From: Thiomargarita sp.
GTDB lineage: Bacteria > Pseudomonadota > Gammaproteobacteria > Beggiatoales > Beggiatoaceae
DNA length: 64,000 nucleotides
Direction of reading: 5' to 3'
Assembly: GCA_020718845.1 (NCBI GenBank)
Contig: DYRG01000005.1
Coordinates: forward strand, 1 to 64,000
This document shows, in pieces, positions 5,865-17,071 of this stretch. The translations under genes and the position numbers were made by a program. Position 1 is the stretch's first letter. Each line of letters opens with the position of its first letter. The notes under the pieces were generated by a model. It had not been told where the DNA came from. It did no database searches and saw nothing but the letters and a program-made list of their open reading frames with translations.

Positions 5865-5933
5865 GATCATTTTATTTCAGGGGTGTTTATCCCTGTTAGA
5901 TTTAAGTTATGTTTAGCCGGAGAATTATTCCCT

Positions 5934-6200
5934 ATGTTGACAGCCGCACAAAAAGCGCAAGCCGTTCAAGAGTTTCAACGCAGCCCGAATGATACGGGTT
6001 CTTCTGAAGTTCAAATCGCCTTATTAACTCGTAATATCAATGCGTTATCTGATCATTTCAAAGCGCACAAACATGACAATCATTCGCGTCGTGGGTTGTT
6101 GAAAATGGTCAATAGCCGTCGTAAGTTATTGGATTATCTCAAATCGACAGAACATGGTCGGTATCGTGAAATTCTCGACCGTTTAGGCTTACGTCGTTAA
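5934..6200 (+). CDS. rpsO: 30S ribosomal protein S15
   Basis: An 88-residue S15, a primary 16S rRNA-binding protein of the small-subunit platform. The family sequence is recognisable throughout ([22 protein letters not shown], then [20 protein letters not shown], ending GLRR). The frame extends upstream to 5883, but the start at 5934 gives the normal length and has a GGAGA sequence about 9 bp upstream. It is followed by pnp 44 bp later, the conserved rpsO-pnp arrangement of proteobacteria. In E. coli, S15 represses its own translation through an mRNA pseudoknot; I did not identify that structure here. Confidence 0.97.
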
Positions 6201-6244
6201 TTTTGTTGGTTATTTAATGTGGGTTTGTGCTTTTAGGATGCCCG

Positions 6245-8335
6245 ATGAGCGTACATAAAAAACAGTTTCAATACGGTCAATATCAAGTGAGCTTGGAAAC
6301 CGGCGAAATCGCCCGTCAAGCCACTGCTGCCGTGATGGTTAGCATGGCGGATACCGTTGTTTTAGTCACGGTGGTCGCCACCAAAGAAACCCGTCAGGGA
6401 ACGGATTTTTTCCCTTTGACGGTTGATTATCAAGAGCGTACCTACGCCGCCGGTCGCATTCCAGGCAGCTTCATGAAACGTGAAGGCAAACCCAGCGATA
6501 AAGAAACCCTCACTTCTCGCTTGATCGACCGTCCGTTGCGTCCTTTGTTTCCCAAGGGATTCACCAACGAAGTCCAAATCATTGCGACCGTTCTTTCTTT
6601 AAATCCCGACGTTGATCCCGATGTCCCCACTATTTTAGGCGCATCTGCGGCTTTAGCGATTTCTGGCTTACCTTTCCAAGGACCTGTCGGGGCGGCGCGA
6701 GTCGGTTATCGTGATGGCGAATTTATTTTAAGTCCTACCGCCGCTGACATGGCGCACTCGACACTTGATTTGGTCGTCGCGGGCACGGAAGGCGCGGTGT
6801 TAATGGTTGAGTCGGAGGCAAAAGAACTTCCCGAACAAGTCATGCTCGACGCGGTTCTCTTTGGACATCAGCAATTTCAATCTGCCATTCAAGCGATTAA
6901 AGAATTTGCCGCAGAAGTTGCAACGCCCGCATGGAATTGGCAACCCGCCCCAACTGACGAAACTTTACACGCGAAAGTTGCTGAATTAGCTGGAAAAGAT
7001 GTCGCAGAAGCCTATCGTATTCGGGATAAATTAGCGCGTTATGGTCGTTTGGATGAATTGCGCAGCAACGTCGTTGAAAATTTAACCAGCGGCGAAACGC
7101 CACAATACGATGAATTTACAGTTACGCAAGCATTTGAAAAACTTGAAAAAATTACAGTTCGCAGCAGCATTATTCGGGGTGAACCTCGAATCGACGGACG
7201 CGACACTTTAACAGTTCGTCCGATCACGATTCGCACGGGGGTTTTACCAAGAACACACGGTTCAGCTCTTTTTACACGCGGCGAAACCCAAGCCTTAGCG
7301 GTTGCCACTTTAGGCACTGAACGCGATTCTCAAATCATCGACGCGCTCGAAGGCGAACATCGCGACCCATTTATGTTCCATTATAATTTCCCTCCGTATT
7401 GCGTGGGTGAAATTGGACGGGTCGGCAGCCCTAAACGCCGTGAGATCGGTCATGGACGCTTGGCAAAACGTGGCGTATATGCAGTGATGCCCAATTTAGC
7501 GACCTTCCCTTACACCGTGCGCGTGGTTTCTGAAATCACCGAATCCAACGGTTCAAGCTCGATGGCTTCGGTGTGCGGCGCGTGTTTAGCGTTGATGGAT
7601 GCGGGCGTGCCTTTAAAAGCACCCGTCGCGGGCATTGCGATGGGTTTGATCAAAGAAAACGACCAATTCGTTGTTTTAACTGACATTATGGGCGACGAAG
7701 ACCATTTGGGCGATATGGATTTCAAAGTCGCTGGAACGCAAGACGGCATCACCGCGTTACAAATGGACATCAAAATCGACGGGATTACTCGTGAAATTAT
7801 GGCGACCGCGCTCGAACAAGCGAAAAACGGTCGGATGCACATTTTAAGCATTATGTATCAATCACTTCCGAAATCTCGCACGGAAATTTCGATGTACGCG
7901 CCGCGCATTTTAACGTTCCGCATTCGCCCCGAAAAAATCCGTGACGTAATCGGCAAAGGTGGCGCGGTGATTCGCAGCATTACCGAAGAAACAGGCGTTC
8001 AAGTGGATATTTCTGACGACGGAACGGTGAAAATCGCGTCCGCAGACATGGCAGCGAGCCAAGAAGCGCGTCGTCGCATTGAAATGATTACCACTGATAT
8101 CGAAGTCGGCACAATTTACGAAGGTCGTGTCACGAAATTAATGGATTTTGGTGCATTTGTGACGTTAATGCCTGGGCGCGATGGTTTGGTACATATTTCT
8201 CAAATTTCAGATGAAAGAGTCGAGAAAGTCACCGACAAACTCACCGAAGGCGATATGGTTCGCGTCAAAGTCTTAGAAATTGACAAACAAGGTCGCATTC
8301 GTTTAAGTATGAAAGCCGTCAACGCTGCTGAATAA
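6245..8335 (+). CDS. pnp: Polyribonucleotide nucleotidyltransferase (PNPase)
   Basis: A 696-residue 3'-5' phosphorolytic exoribonuclease of the RNA degradosome. Two RNase PH-like domains are visible. The first begins [16 protein letters not shown], and the second contains the [16 protein letters not shown] motif and the conserved [15 protein letters not shown] active-site region. A KH domain ([21 protein letters not shown]) and an S1 domain ([17 protein letters not shown]) follow at the C-terminus. The start at 6245 has AGGA upstream. G+C content is higher than in most neighbouring genes, as expected for a highly expressed gene. It is cotranscribed with rpsO and followed by two terminators. 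Confidence 0.98.
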
Positions 8336-11633: not shown

Positions 11634-12533
11634 ATGCAAACAACCTTATATATTGCGAGTGGAATGATTGTTAGTTTATTAATCATTGCAGAAATCATTA
11701 TTCGTTTCTTTTTCAAATCGGTTGAATTACGCCAACGTTTGCATACTTGGTGGGGTTTGGCGGCGGTTTTATTGTCAGCAATTTTACTGCAAGGTCAATG
11801 GGTTGCGATTTTATGGGGAGCAATTAGTTTTCTGGCATTTAGAGAATATGTTTCTTTAATTCCTTTGCGTCAAGCCGACCGTCCAGCGTTGTGGGCGTGT
11901 TTTCTAAGTATTCCTTTGCAATATTATTGGGTTGCAACGCATTGGTACGGGATGTTTATTATTTTTATCCCTGTGTATATGTTATTGATTTTACCGCTAT
12001 TATTGATGAGTGGCGGTCAAACGCAAGGTTTTTTACACGCTGCTGGACGTTTGCATTGGGGATTGATGATTACGATTTTTAGCGTTAGTCACGCGGCTTT
12101 TTTGCAAGGTTTGCCCGCCGATCCGAATATGGGGGCGGCGTTGTTGTTATGTTTATTATTTCTCACGGCATTCAATGACATAGCGCAATATATTTGGGGA
12201 AAGAGTTTTGGTCGTCACAAAATCACGCCGTCGATCAGCCCGAATAAAACGTGGGAAGGTTTTTTAGGCGGCGTTTTTAGCACCACCGCGTTAATGATGC
12301 TGTTTGCCCCATATTTGACCCCTTTAACGCACATAGAAGCCTTTGCAGCGGGTTTAATCATCAGCGTTGGGGGTTTTTTTGGGGATTTAAGCATCTCCGC
12401 CATCAAGCGCGACGTAGGCATCAAAGACAGCGGCAACGCTTTGCCCGGGCACGGCGGCATTTTAGATCGTTTGGACAGCCTCATGTTCACCGCGCCGTTA
12501 TTTTTCCACTTTGTTCGTTATTTTCATTTTTAA
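11634..12533 (+). CDS. Phosphatidate cytidylyltransferase (CdsA family, YnbB-like)
   Basis: A 299-residue integral membrane protein that should make CDP-diacylglycerol from CTP and phosphatidic acid. The CdsA signature is intact near the C-terminus: SAIKRDVGIKDSGNALPGHGG, then ILDRLDS. Upstream are GKSFGRHKITPSISPNKTWEG and about seven hydrophobic helices. Pairing with the CDP-alcohol phosphotransferase at 11028 suggests a dedicated two-enzyme lipid branch (a CDP-donor synthase and its user) rather than the housekeeping cdsA, which normally lies near dxr, uppS and bamA. It is followed by the DnaA-box cluster. Confidence 0.88.
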   Translation: MQTTLYIASGMIVSLLIIAEIIIRFFFKSVELRQRLHTWWGLAAVLLSAILLQGQWVAILWGAISFLAFREYVSLIPLRQADRPALWACFLSIPLQYYWVATHWYGMFIIFIPVYMLLILPLLLMSGGQTQGFLHAAGRLHWGLMITIFSVSHAAFLQGLPADPNMGAALLLCLLFLTAFNDIAQYIWGKSFGRHKITPSISPNKTWEGFLGGVFSTTALMMLFAPYLTPLTHIEAFAAGLIISVGGFFGDLSISAIKRDVGIKDSGNALPGHGGILDRLDSLMFTAPLFFHFVRYFHF

Positions 12534-12559
12534 ATAATTAAAAATAATGTTAATGAGGC

Positions 12560-12721
12560 TGTGAATAACGTGGATAAGTCCTTTTTTATGAATTAAATCA
12601 ATACATTAAAGTGTGCATAACTTGTGAAAAAAAGTGCATAAATGGGGAAAACTCTGTGAATTTTTACCTTGATGTCAAGTTATCCACAAGTTATGCACAA
12701 CTTATCCACACTTTATTCACA
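12560..12721. other. Cluster of DnaA boxes (candidate DnaA-binding locus)
   Basis: Six perfect matches to TTATNCACA lie within 162 bp. Two are on the minus strand (12560-12568, 12612-12620) and four on the plus strand (12680-12688, 12691-12699, 12702-12710, 12713-12721). Two further minus-strand sites (12569-12577, 12633-12641) have one mismatch in the last base. The four plus-strand boxes are spaced exactly 11 bp apart, about one helical turn. The minus-facing group lies left and the plus-facing group right, with an A/T-rich stretch (12581-12610) between the two left pairs. There is no dnaA, dnaN, rpmH or gidA nearby. The boxes are seen directly; a role as replication origin, DnaA-titration site or regulatory site is inference. 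Confidence 0.75.
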
Positions 12722-12819
12722 GCACCCGCTGAGGTTTGACTGACAACCAATCGAACAACATTAACATCGGGTATAATTTTCAACACAGATAGATCAAATA
12801 ACTAAAGGAGGTTTTTCTT

Positions 12820-14304
12820 ATGCAACAAATGGCTTGGACATCTGAATTAAACACATTAAGCAATTATTTGACTGTTTTTAATCAACCGCAATTTGATTTG
12901 TTAATTAAAGAGCTTAATGATTTGGTTGATCCACACAATACTTTACCTAAAAATATTCTCACAGGTGTGAGAAGAACTTTAGAATGTATTATTTCTGATC
13001 TAAACAAAAACAACTTAACTCAAACCTTGGAAGGAAAATCTTTATCAAAAGCCATTAATAAATTGAGAGAACAAGGTGTTATTTCTGAACATATCATATC
13101 TTCTTGTTACAATGTCAAAAACTTAGGAGATTTAGGAGCGCATTATTTCACTGAAATTGATGAACAACATCAGCCTAAAGAAGCCTTAATGTCCTTAATT
13201 ACAATATTGCATTGGTATGCAAAACTACATGGTTTGCAATTACCAAACAATAAATCATTAAAACTTTTGGAACAAGAAACGGTTTCTTATGAATTAGAAA
13301 TGGTGGGCGGAGCGATTCCATTAGATTCTAAGTTTTATATTGAAAGACCCGTCGATGAAGAGTTTTTTAAATTTGTGAAACGCCGTGATAGCATCGTGTT
13401 ACTAAAAGGTGCACGACAAGTAGGAAAAACTTCATTATTAGCGAGAGGAATCCAACAAACACGCGAGGCGGGTTATTTAGTTTTAATTACCGATTTTCAA
13501 CGCTTAATTGACGTGCAATTACAAAGTTTAGAAACGCTATTTATTGCATTAGCGGATATGATTGCCGATCAATTGAATTTGGAGGTTTATATTGAGGATA
13601 AATGGCGAAACAAAAGTCCTCCCAATGTTAATTTTGACAGTTATTTTCGACGTGAAGTGTTAGGTAAAACTGACAAACCTATTTTATGGGCAATTGATGA
13701 AGCGGATCGGTTGTTCACTTGTGCTTTTAGTGGAGAGTTTTTTGCGTTGTTTAGAACTTGGCATAATGATCGAGCTTTAAATCCGAGTTCTCCTTGCTCA
13801 CGTTTGACCTTAGCAATTGCGTATGCAACAGAAACCTATTTGTTTATCAAAGACCCCAATCAATCGCCTTTTAATGTAGGAACAAAATTGGTATTGGAAG
13901 ATTTCACCATTGCTCAAATAAAGGAATTAAATCAACGTTATGGAAATCCTTTGAAAACAGATCAAGAATTGGAATCTTTTCATCAGTTTTTAGGAGGACA
14001 ACCGTTTTTAACCCGCAGTGGATTCAATGAAATGGTTGCTCGACATTTAACTTTAGAACAGTTTAAAAATCAAGCAATTCAAGAAGATGGCGCATTAGGC
14101 GATCATTTGCGACGTTTATTATTGTTATTGCGTGATCCAGAATTAGCAGAAACTATCCGTGATGTTTTAAATGGAGAAACTTGCCATAATGATGAAAGAT
14201 TTTCTTTATTACGACGGGTCGGTTTATTGAGAGGAAATTGTCGACAAGAAGCCCGTTTACGTTGTGAAATCTACGATGTTTATTTACGCAATCATTTGTT
14301 ATAA
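12820..14304 (+). CDS. AAA-like P-loop ATPase with a DUF4145/HEPN-like N-terminal domain
   Basis: A 494-residue cytosolic protein. Residues ~50-110 (VRRTLECIISDL, LSKAINKLREQGVISE, NLGDLGAHYF) resemble DUF4145-type, HEPN-superfamily domains, which occur in abortive-infection proteins. The ATPase part has Walker A GARQVGKTS (197-205) and Walker B ILWAIDEADRLF (~288-299), the arrangement of the AAA-like (AAA_35) family common in cyanobacteria and Beggiatoa-type bacteria. AAGGAGG precedes the ATG closely, and a TATAAT lies at 12772-12777. It is followed by a MntA-HepT pair and a second AAA-like protein with a similar Walker A. Function is unknown; defence is a hypothesis from neighbours. Confidence 0.7.
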   Translation: MQQMAWTSELNTLSNYLTVFNQPQFDLLIKELNDLVDPHNTLPKNILTGVRRTLECIISDLNKNNLTQTLEGKSLSKAINKLREQGVISEHIISSCYNVKNLGDLGAHYFTEIDEQHQPKEALMSLITILHWYAKLHGLQLPNNKSLKLLEQETVSYELEMVGGAIPLDSKFYIERPVDEEFFKFVKRRDSIVLLKGARQVGKTSLLARGIQQTREAGYLVLITDFQRLIDVQLQSLETLFIALADMIADQLNLEVYIEDKWRNKSPPNVNFDSYFRREVLGKTDKPILWAIDEADRLFTCAFSGEFFALFRTWHNDRALNPSSPCSRLTLAIAYATETYLFIKDPNQSPFNVGTKLVLEDFTIAQIKELNQRYGNPLKTDQELESFHQFLGGQPFLTRSGFNEMVARHLTLEQFKNQAIQEDGALGDHLRRLLLLLRDPELAETIRDVLNGETCHNDERFSLLRRVGLLRGNCRQEARLRCEIYDVYLRNHLL

Positions 14305-14314
14305 TGCACATTCT

Positions 14315-14343
14315 CTCATTACCAAATGCCACTTGGTAATGAG
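14315..14343. repeat. 11-bp perfect inverted repeat ahead of mntA-hepT
   Basis: CTCATTACCAA (14315-14325) and its exact complement (14333-14343) are separated by 7 nt, between the AAA gene stop and the mntA ribosome-binding site. There is no T-tract, so an operator for autoregulation of the toxin-antitoxin pair, or a leader hairpin, is more likely than a terminator. Confidence 0.6.
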
Positions 14344-14362
14344 GAAATTGGAGAAAGTTATT

Positions 14363-14656
14363 ATGCTAACACAACAAAAAGTATTACAAGGATTAAGATT
14401 ACATCGTGATGAACTGCAACATAAATTTATGATTAAATCATTAGCGATTTTTGGTTCAGTTGCGCGTAATGAAATTAGAGAAAATAGTGATATAGATGTT
14501 TTAGTTGAGTTTAAACAACCTATTGGGTTATTTGAATTTTTAACGTTACAAAATTATTTAGAATCATTATTTAATGCTAAAGTTGATTTAGTAACACCAG
14601 CAGCATTAAAACCTCAATTACGCGATAAAATTTTGAACGATGTGATTTATGTCTAG
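14363..14656 (+). CDS. mntA: MntA-type minimal nucleotidyltransferase antitoxin
   Basis: A 97-residue protein with the exact GSX10DXD nucleotidyltransferase motif (FGSVARNEIRENSDIDVLVEF) and a downstream third acidic residue in KVDLVTP. MNT proteins of this type act as antitoxins that transfer AMP to a tyrosine of the partner HEPN RNase. The ATG at 14363 has GGAGA upstream; the frame opens earlier but those codons overlap the AAA gene. The hepT start at 14649 overlaps its end by 8 bp, the usual antitoxin-toxin coupling of type VII systems. Confidence 0.9.
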   Translation: MLTQQKVLQGLRLHRDELQHKFMIKSLAIFGSVARNEIRENSDIDVLVEFKQPIGLFEFLTLQNYLESLFNAKVDLVTPAALKPQLRDKILNDVIYV

Positions 14657-14987
14657 GGAGTGGCGTTTAAGAATTGAGGATATATTGGAAGCAATTTCTA
14701 ATATTAGGGAAGATATTGCTGATTTGAATTTTGATGCTTTTCTTAAAGATCGAAAAACACGAAATTCAGTGGTAAGAGAATTACAAATTATTGGAGAAGC
14801 CGCGAGATATATTCCTTTAGATATAGAGTTACGTTATTCCGCAATTCCTTGGAAGTTAATGCGTGGAATGAGAAATGTGGTAGTTCATGAATATTTTGGA
14901 GTAGATTGGTCAATTATTTGGCAAACAGCGCAATTAAATTTGCCACCGTTGGTTTCAAAACTACAGCAAATTTTAGAAGAAAGTTAA
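14649..14987 (+). CDS. hepT: HepT-type HEPN RNase toxin (DUF86)
   Basis: A 112-residue helical protein with the HEPN catalytic motif RX4HXY intact (R75-N-V-V-V-H80-E-Y82). In characterised HepT proteins this cleaves RNA, and the Tyr is the residue adenylylated by MntA. The IIGEAARYIP segment and the IPWKLMRGMRN segment are also typical of DUF86. It overlaps mntA by 8 bp. Its stop is 14 bp before the next AAA-like gene, so mntA-hepT and that ATPase are likely cotranscribed. Confidence 0.92.
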   Translation: MSREWRLRIEDILEAISNIREDIADLNFDAFLKDRKTRNSVVRELQIIGEAARYIPLDIELRYSAIPWKLMRGMRNVVVHEYFGVDWSIIWQTAQLNLPPLVSKLQQILEES

Positions 14988-15001
14988 AGGAGAAACAAGC
15001 A

Positions 15002-17071
15002 ATGTCAGAGTTTTATGCAGCGAGTGGTGGAACATTAGAAATTAATGCGCCGTCTTATATTACCAGACAAGCCGATGAAGATTTGTATCAGCATTTGTCG
15101 AAGGGTAATTATTGTTATGTTTTGAACAGTCGGCAAACGGGCAAAAGTTCTTTATTGGCACGGGTTGCCCAGCGATTGCGCAATGAAAGAATAAAAGTGG
15201 TTATTTTTGAAATGACCGCGTTAGGAAATAATCTTTCAGCAGAGCAATGGTACGATGGTTTGATTACAAAGGTTGCCGAGCAGTTGAATTTGTATGATGA
15301 GATGTATGAATATTGGGATAACAATGAACGGTTAGGATTTTTGCAACGATGGTCTAATGTTTTAAAAGAAGTGGTTTTAAAGCACGTTGAAACGCCGATG
15401 GTGATTATTTTAGATGAAGTGGATTTGGTGAGAAGTTTGCCGTTTTCAACCGATGAGTTCTTTGCAGGAATTCGGACGTGTTTTAATGAACGGACGCAAT
15501 ATCCAGAAATGGCGCGTTTAACCTTTTGTTTAGCGGGAGTTGCAACGCCGTCAGAATTGATTCAAGATGCGAGAATTACGCCGTTTAATATTGGGCAACG
15601 CATTGATTTAAGTGATTTTTCACAACAAGAAGCGGAACTTTTCTTACAAGGATTGAAACGCGAACAAACCCCATCAAAAGCGTTATTAAAACGGATTTTA
15701 TATTGGACAAATGGACACCCGTATTTAACGCAAAAGTTATGTCAAGCGGTGGCGGATGATCAAAGCGTTCAGAAACCTAAAGGCGTGGATCGGATTTGTG
15801 AGGAATTGTTTTTCAGCAGTCGTTCAAAAGAAACCGAAAACAATTTGCAGCACGTTCGCACTCAAATGCTAAGAAACGATATTGATCATGCGGCAATTTT
15901 GGATTTGTATCGACAAATACGGCGGCAGAAGAAAATCAAAGATGATGATACGAATCCGATCATTAATTTGTTGCGTTTGTCGGGATTGGTTAAAGTATTG
16001 GAAAATTATTTGTGGGTGCGCAATCGGATTTATTTCAAAGTCTTTGATGACGCATGGATTGCAGCGAATTTACCCGATGCCGAGAAACAGCGTCAAAAAC
16101 AAGCCCAACGACGTGGTTTCATTCAAGCAGCAATGTTGTCATCGGGAGTGATTGCAATCATGGCAGGATTGGCGATTTGGGCGTGGTTTGCGCAACAACG
16201 CGCCGAACATCAAGAAAACATTGCAACTCAACAAAAAGATATTGCAAATCAGCAACGAGATTTAGCGTTGAAAGCAGTGAATACCTTGACGTATGGAAAT
16301 ATAGAAAAACTCTTAAACATCGCGGGAACACGTCAATATATTTTGCCGATCTTTGAAAAGAATATTCAAACCTTAGACGCTATTTATGCCCTTGAACCCG
16401 ATCAAAACAAAGCGCAACGCGAGAAAGGTTCAAATCTTGAAAGAATAGGTAATATGTGGATGATGTTAGGAGATACTCCGAAAGCCTTACAAGCCTATCA
16501 AAAGAAATTAGAGATAGATCAAAAACTTACTACTGCCGATCCGCTCAATAGTGAATCACAACGCGATTTGTCGGTGAGTTTTAATAAGTTAGGAGATGTG
16601 CAATTAAGGTTAGGACAAACCGAGCAAGCCTTACAAGCCTATCAAAAGAAATTAGAGATAGATCAAAAACTAACTACTGCCGATCCGCTCAATAGTCAAT
16701 CACAACGCGATTTGTCCGTGAGTTTTAATAATTTAGGAAATGTGCAATTAAGGTTAGGACAAACCGAGCAAGCCTTACAAGCCTATCAACAGATGAATGA
16801 AATATTTGAGAAACTCGCCGCCGCCGATCCGCTCAATAGTGAATCACAACGCGATTTGTCGGTGAGTTATTCAAAGATTGCAGATGTTTATTTGAAAATG
16901 AAGCAACTAAACGAAGCCTTAGAATTGAATCAAAAATCTTTAACAATCGTTGAGAAACTGCTTGAACAAGACCCGCAAAATCAAACGTTGAAAGATGATA
17001 TAAAAATAAAACAACGAAGAACAGCTCGTATCAAACAACAAATGGAGGAAAGCGCGCAAGAAAAAGAGTGA
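15002..17071 (+). CDS. AAA-like ATPase with a transmembrane helix and TPR repeats
   Basis: A 689-residue protein. Its N-terminal AAA-like domain has Walker A NSRQTGKSS (42-50) and Walker B PMVIILDEVDLV (~132-143). One membrane helix (GVIAIMAGLAIWAWF, ~380-395) follows, then a short coiled coil, then at least three 48-residue TPR-like units. The start at 15002 has GGAGA upstream and gives the family-type N-terminus; earlier in-frame codons overlap hepT. The Walker A spacing resembles that of the 12820 protein, so the two are probably distant paralogues. The predicted layout is an N-terminal ATPase joined by one helix to a repeat domain on the other side of the membrane. Partners and function are unknown. 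Confidence 0.75.
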   Translation: MSEFYAASGGTLEINAPSYITRQADEDLYQHLSKGNYCYVLNSRQTGKSSLLARVAQRLRNERIKVVIFEMTALGNNLSAEQWYDGLITKVAEQLNLYDEMYEYWDNNERLGFLQRWSNVLKEVVLKHVETPMVIILDEVDLVRSLPFSTDEFFAGIRTCFNERTQYPEMARLTFCLAGVATPSELIQDARITPFNIGQRIDLSDFSQQEAELFLQGLKREQTPSKALLKRILYWTNGHPYLTQKLCQAVADDQSVQKPKGVDRICEELFFSSRSKETENNLQHVRTQMLRNDIDHAAILDLYRQIRRQKKIKDDDTNPIINLLRLSGLVKVLENYLWVRNRIYFKVFDDAWIAANLPDAEKQRQKQAQRRGFIQAAMLSSGVIAIMAGLAIWAWFAQQRAEHQENIATQQKDIANQQRDLALKAVNTLTYGNIEKLLNIAGTRQYILPIFEKNIQTLDAIYALEPDQNKAQREKGSNLERIGNMWMMLGDTPKALQAYQKKLEIDQKLTTADPLNSESQRDLSVSFNKLGDVQLRLGQTEQALQAYQKKLEIDQKLTTADPLNSQSQRDLSVSFNNLGNVQLRLGQTEQALQAYQQMNEIFEKLAAADPLNSESQRDLSVSYSKIADVYLKMKQLNEALELNQKSLTIVEKLLEQDPQNQTLKDDIKIKQRRTARIKQQMEESAQEKE
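16494..16925 (+). repeat. Three tandem 144-bp TPR-coding repeats
   Basis: Units begin at 16494, 16638 and 16782, exactly 144 bp (48 codons) apart. The first two are nearly identical at DNA level and the third diverges in its first third. The near-identity suggests recent duplication or conversion, and copy number may vary between strains. Confidence 0.85.

Follow-up and report, generated by a model that had tools for sequence, protein, structure and literature searches.

In Escherichia coli, the replication origin oriC comprises an unwinding element (DUE) and opposed left and right groups of DnaA boxes, with the IHF site IBS1 in the left group (PMC10380432). The trio motif of origin unwinding regions is described in PMC10721633. 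Two other E. coli loci, datA and DARS2, each combine DnaA boxes with an IHF site and lie away from dnaA (PMC10380432). Putative double oriC loci recorded in DoriC are candidates located beside dnaA, hemE or parB (Gao 2015, PMC4403523). Multiple oriC regions have been predicted for Achromatium, where their count was set against the copies of dnaN and of dnaA, genes that are said to lie by oriC (PMC5587575). For polyploid cyanobacteria, loss of DnaA, multi-origin replication and DnaA-independent replication have been described (PMC7198777).

The window analyzed here is a 64,000-nucleotide stretch on contig C64 of a 2.98-Mb draft genome in 123 contigs (G000). A sequence-only reading of this DNA had singled out a dense DnaA-box array, proposed either an origin or a DnaA titration or reactivation site, and leaned away from the origin. 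Comparison with the family and with E. coli indicates that the array is probably (a likelihood of roughly 80%) an oriC-type replication origin that has become detached from dnaA and has been duplicated.

An oriC-like element in the window

The features of the locus, in window coordinates, are as follows.

5883-6200, pointing right: rpsO
6227-8335, pointing right: pnp
12518-12722, plus strand: the whole oriC-like element; its paralogue is at 11087-11300 of contig C17 (minus strand)
12518-12559, plus strand: AT-rich unwinding-element-like (DUE) stretch of 86% A+T that contains trio-like repeats AATAATGTTAATG and runs up to the first box
12560-12568, minus strand: perfect DnaA box, TTATTCACA on that strand
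12569-12577, minus strand: R1-equivalent DnaA box with one mismatch, TTATCCACG, which lines up with R1 in every family element
12596-12608, plus strand: perfect match to the IHF-site consensus AATCAATACATTA (WATCAANNNNTTR), at offset 27 from R1 and preceded by an A/T tract
12612-12620, minus strand: left-group DnaA box, perfect
12623-12631 and 12633-12641, minus strand: left-group DnaA boxes, one mismatch each
12643 and 12655, minus strand: weaker left-group sites, two mismatches each
12680, 12691, 12702 and 12713, plus strand: four right-group DnaA boxes, all perfect, at exact 11-bp spacing (group 12680-12721)
about 34.6-35.1 kb, minus strand, pointing left: rpsI/rplM, by motif match

The array spans 162 bp (12560-12721). 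Of its nine TTATNCACA DnaA boxes, arranged in two groups that face opposite ways, six are perfect and three have one mismatch. The six perfect boxes had been counted correctly by the sequence-only reading, which listed two rather than three single-mismatch sites. The coordinates bear out its description of two groups of opposite orientation, on the minus strand to the left and the plus strand to the right, and of four consecutive boxes with an exact 11-bp period (12680, 12691, 12702 and 12713). Because the genome is AT-rich and single one-mismatch boxes are as frequent as chance predicts, a chance or low-complexity cluster of words resembling DnaA boxes was considered. This explanation has a negligible probability: it is refuted by the density of perfect boxes, six per 170 bp versus a maximum of two in 60 Markov-simulated windows, and the layout is conserved across genera. 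For boxes with at most one mismatch, nine per 170 bp were observed versus a maximum of five in the same simulations.

The array forms part of a longer element (12518-12722), composed in order of an AT-rich unwinding region with trio-like repeats, an R1-type box, an IHF site, left boxes and opposed right boxes. Ten family elements from seven genomes align over their full length in this order. In the alignment, TAG/TTA-type triplets occupy the AT-rich stretch, an A/T tract precedes the IHF core, and the left boxes, spaced by 11 bp in the orientation of R1, are separated by a variable spacer from right boxes of the same spacing and opposite orientation. Between R1 and the boxes that follow, 18 of 23 family elements have the IHF consensus with at most one mismatch (1.9 expected, maximum 7) and eight of the 23 have it without mismatch (0.11 expected); the offset of its core from R1 is 27-28 in most. 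Trio-type hexamers are present in the 50 bp to the left of R1 in 21 of the 23 elements, with 86 in all versus 26 expected and a maximum of 56 in 1000 simulations.

Three layout features of a gammaproteobacterial oriC are found together in the window: opposed groups of head-to-tail-spaced boxes, an IHF site lying between R1 and the left box that follows, and an AT-rich DUE beside R1 whose trio-like repeats are imperfect in this copy. The trio stretch is less regular than in the elements G001 or G015b, which counts against the oriC reading. GATC sites, which are frequent in E. coli oriC, do not occur in the window element, and this also counts against it. In G001, about 20 perfect DnaA boxes lie within 620 bp (contig C92; L037:8113-8735), the oriC-like element being flanked by additional boxes at alternating 20-21-bp spacing.

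Comparison with E. coli oriC, datA and the DARS loci

A sequence model was built from the ten aligned elements. Selection by box pattern makes the scores of these ten circular, a problem that does not affect the later hits, the IHF register or the match to E. coli oriC (MG1655 3925744-3925975). The model matches E. coli oriC over nearly its full length (model positions 18-225 of 228), with a modest score of 14.7 bits (E = 5e-4), and the match has R1, the IHF site and R4 in register. A partial match on the other strand scores slightly higher, at 15.7 bits, owing to the inverted arrangement of the two box groups. The offset of the IHF site from R1 is 27 in E. coli oriC, identical to that in the window element; the E. 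coli sequence at this offset is the IHF site IBS1. datA, DARS1 and DARS2 match the model in short fragments only, each below 10 bits. Whereas datA and DARS sites are defined by a core of few boxes with IHF (and Fis) sites and no unwinding element, the window has the full DUE-R1-IHF plan.

The two possibilities offered by the sequence-only reading can thus be weighed. The origin is clearly the stronger of the two, given the order and register shared with E. coli oriC and the fragmentary matches of datA and the DARS loci, so that the reading is borne out in part. Because the unwinding region, R1, the IHF site and the opposed boxes keep the orientation and register of E. coli oriC and are tied to dnaA, oriC is by far the best label for the element; a titration or reactivation label is disfavored because such sites need no unwinding parts.

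Co-occurrence with dnaA across the family

The family sample comprises 42 genomes, in which DnaA was scored by its DNA-binding domain. Sixteen genomes have this domain and 26 lack it, the latter including G039, which is a single contig and 100% complete. The same 16 genomes encode another DnaA-like protein, of about 240 residues, whose copy in G000 scores just above the Hda cut-off, and an Hda-like protein is lacking in all 26 genomes without dnaA. Since a model of IHF alpha matches 41 of the 42 genomes, G000 included, the absence of dnaA and hda is not simply a matter of poor assembly. From gene content, these gammaproteobacteria appear to replicate without DnaA: the 26 genomes encode neither DnaA nor an Hda-like protein but retain IHF.

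The element (E <= 1e-4) follows the same division, occurring in 15 of the 16 genomes with dnaA versus one of the 26 without, and the lone match in the latter is a partial repeat that has no DUE or IHF parts. When only genomes outside the model are counted, the figures are 8 of 9 versus 1 of 26 (p = 3e-6, a value that is too small, as are those of all such co-occurrence tests, because genomes with shared ancestry are counted rather than independent events).

The element and dnaA occur in the same genomes at separate loci. At all 16 dnaA loci of the family, no perfect box was found within about 1.5 kb where the contig allows, and an origin of the rpmH-dnaA-dnaN type is thus not seen at any of them. 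In G000, dnaA lies on contig C81 with mnmE, yidC, rnpA and rpmH (genes named by sight), and the rpmH-dnaA gap contains no box cluster. The array on C64 is therefore far from dnaA, as the sequence-only reading had recognized. The lack of dnaA, dnaN or gidA neighbors, which it had held against an origin, is no objection, because no dnaA gene in this family has a perfect box nearby.

Genomic setting of the window copy

The element is immediately flanked by a CTP_transf_1 (cdsA-like) gene that ends at 12533 and an AAA_35 gene that starts at 12820. rpsO-pnp on the left and rplM-rpsI on the right point toward the array, as had been described, with rplM-rpsI more than 20 kb away and not an immediate neighbor. 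Relatives matched via a neighboring protein include Candidatus Halobeggiatoa, Marithrix, Parabeggiatoa and Thiomargarita, which places the family within Beggiatoaceae or near it. An ancestral cdsA-linked feature was considered and rejected, as no box cluster was found at the cdsA loci of 80 named relatives. Downstream of the element, two AAA_35 proteins are encoded at 12820-14304 and 14906-17071, one with DUF4145 and the other with TPR repeats. Adjacent genes for a nucleotidyltransferase (PF01909) and a HepT-like protein (PF01934) at 14264-14987 likely form a HEPN/MNT toxin-antitoxin pair.

DnaA is a known transcription regulator, and the element ends approximately 100 bp upstream of the AAA_35 gene start, an arrangement that would suit a DnaA-controlled promoter region of that gene or a regulatory repeat rich in boxes, neither of them involved in initiation. 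Such a function is very improbable, as the element adjoins unrelated genes in other genera and on C17, has parts that are superfluous to a promoter, and is lost along with dnaA.

A second copy of the element

Many equally dense clusters elsewhere in the genome, which the sequence-only reading had named as grounds for abandoning its interpretation, do not occur. The only other comparable box cluster in the whole of G000 is on contig C17 and is a homologous copy of the array. C17:11087-11300 (minus strand) is 77% identical to the window element (12518-12722) over 206 bp, non-box sequence included, and the flanks are unrelated. The C17 copy has a short ORF on one side and, on the other, a gene for 2-oxoacid:ferredoxin oxidoreductase with feoA and feoB after it. 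The two copies agree at 88 of 105 family-conserved columns versus 58 of 93 other columns (p = 5e-4).

Duplication of the element is not confined to G000. Two elements each are found in G000, G002, G003, G015, G022 and G035, at least 6 of the 16 genomes with dnaA, and the second element is partial in G018 and G020. In G000, G002, G003 and G035 each copy is most similar to the other one, which is not clearly the case in G015 and G022. Within-genome identity is 77% in G000, 75% in G035, 69% in G002 and 87% in G003, with homology stopping at the element ends. A lineage-specific DnaA box is common to both copies in G035 (TTTTCAACA), G002 (TTATCCAACA) and G003 (TTATCCCACA). Two DnaA-binding units under selection and recent origin-only duplications would look equally like this copy pattern. 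The neighbors of the elements differ between genera, with scattered similarities only, except for a secretin gene common to the congeners G005 and G006.

Lineage-specific box spellings were also noted across the elements of G035, G002, G003 and G004 (L316, L317, L318, L319, L321, L322 and L320). Residues of DnaA domain IV were considered as their explanation and set aside; they vary, with no simple match to box type.

How many of the copies act as origins bears on the reading of the window. A single working origin, possibly that on C17, is a serious candidate, though somewhat short of an even chance; the other copy, perhaps that of the window, would then be a disused or reserve origin retained for DnaA-binding control, like datA or DARS. 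The complete relatives G005 and G006 manage with one element each, copies adjoin unrelated genes in different genera, which implies that origins have moved, and a DnaA-binding decoy would be expected to adopt the box spelling of its lineage too. However, both copies retain the DUE, trio and R1-IHF parts, which are needless for a titration site, and the model finds no more than fragments in datA, DARS1 and DARS2. Alternatively, the copies could belong to two replicons, a main chromosome and a second DnaA-dependent chromosome or chromid, with one copy each. All of the two-copy genomes are drafts, and in the 123 contigs of G000 the copies cannot be placed on one molecule. This arrangement is nevertheless distinctly unlikely: C17 has ordinary housekeeping-type genes (2-oxoacid oxidoreductase, FeoA/FeoB, Mrp-like, aminotransferase), no replicon gene was recognized on it by eye, and in G006, a single contig, the one element is on the only chromosome. 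If both copies are active origins on one chromosome, several genera of large sulfur bacteria would have a naturally two-origin, DnaA-dependent chromosome, a tentative proposal that we consider rather unlikely.

GC skew

The sequence-only reading had proposed a whole-chromosome skew analysis, which was carried out on the complete relative G006 (88 sampling windows of 20 kb, coding-strand bias removed). The skew is too weak for a decision, with a non-significant p = 0.08 for the whole-genome contrast; at the half-genome scale the element falls in the top 2% of candidate origin positions and dnaA ranks in the middle. Contrasts at smaller scales rank the element lower, which, like the weakness of the skew, counts against the oriC reading. 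Over the stretches examined around C64, C17 and the two G022 copies, local skew shows no clear switch, and it does not favor C64 over C17 or the reverse. KOPS polarity in G006 was dropped as a marker, as the scan found minus-strand sites inside an apparently pure zone. Irregular skew accompanies multi-origin replication in cyanobacteria (PMC7198777), and the weak skew here is in keeping with origins that moved or multiplied, although only suggestive of them.

Proposed mechanism and implications

As an oriC-type origin, the element may be expected to work as follows. DnaA-ATP would bind the R1-type box and the 11-bp-spaced left boxes, with IHF bending the DNA between them, and the resulting DnaA filament would melt the AT-rich stretch with the trio repeats (12518-12559). 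A second, opposed DnaA filament on the boxes to the right would aid helicase loading. Binding of DnaA and IHF, melting, and firing of either copy are predictions; the sequences themselves show the layout and register, the C17 copy and the co-occurrence with dnaA in the family. In this lineage the origin would have separated from dnaA, and the C64 and C17 copies, at unrelated places, would both have stayed in step with the DnaA of the cell.

What appears to be new is the setting: an origin away from dnaA throughout the family, whose neighbors differ in nearly every genus and of which several genera have two bare copies. A literature search found no description of dnaA loss or origin duplication in Beggiatoaceae; most subscription journals were outside its scope, which makes this weak evidence of novelty. 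Two matching origin units, spelled with the DnaA box of the lineage, occur in several related genera, and dnaA and hda are missing from sister genera. Within this family of large bacteria, displaced origins, duplicated origins and DnaA-free replication may thus form a series, which read-depth profiling could test directly. If the two-origin reading is true, duplicated and relocated origins would mark a stage on the way to the loss of dnaA and hda in sister genera, which would begin replication by other means.

Comparison with known systems

E. coli oriC resembles the window element in its DUE, R1 box, IHF site at offset 27, and oppositely oriented left and right boxes. The differences are that the window element has perfect right boxes at 11-bp spacing, where those of E. 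coli are mostly weak, and that it has no GATC, has neighbors other than mnmG and mioC, and is present in two copies. datA and DARS1/DARS2 of E. coli have DnaA boxes in common with the element, as well as IHF sites in datA and DARS2, but they have few boxes, no DUE or trio, and no full-length match to the model.

The double oriC loci of DoriC (PMC4403523) and the origins of Achromatium (PMC5587575), which is a giant sulfur bacterium too, are similar in that more than one oriC-like region is predicted per genome. In contrast to those cases, the Beggiatoaceae copies are origin-only units at unrelated loci, are homologous to each other, and occur in several genera. As in the cyanobacteria (PMC7198777), related species with and without dnaA are found and GC skew is irregular. 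The cyanobacterial cells are polyploid, and those of the family considered here are large. The cyanobacteria became DnaA-independent; the Beggiatoaceae that have dnaA keep a DnaA-type origin and duplicate it.
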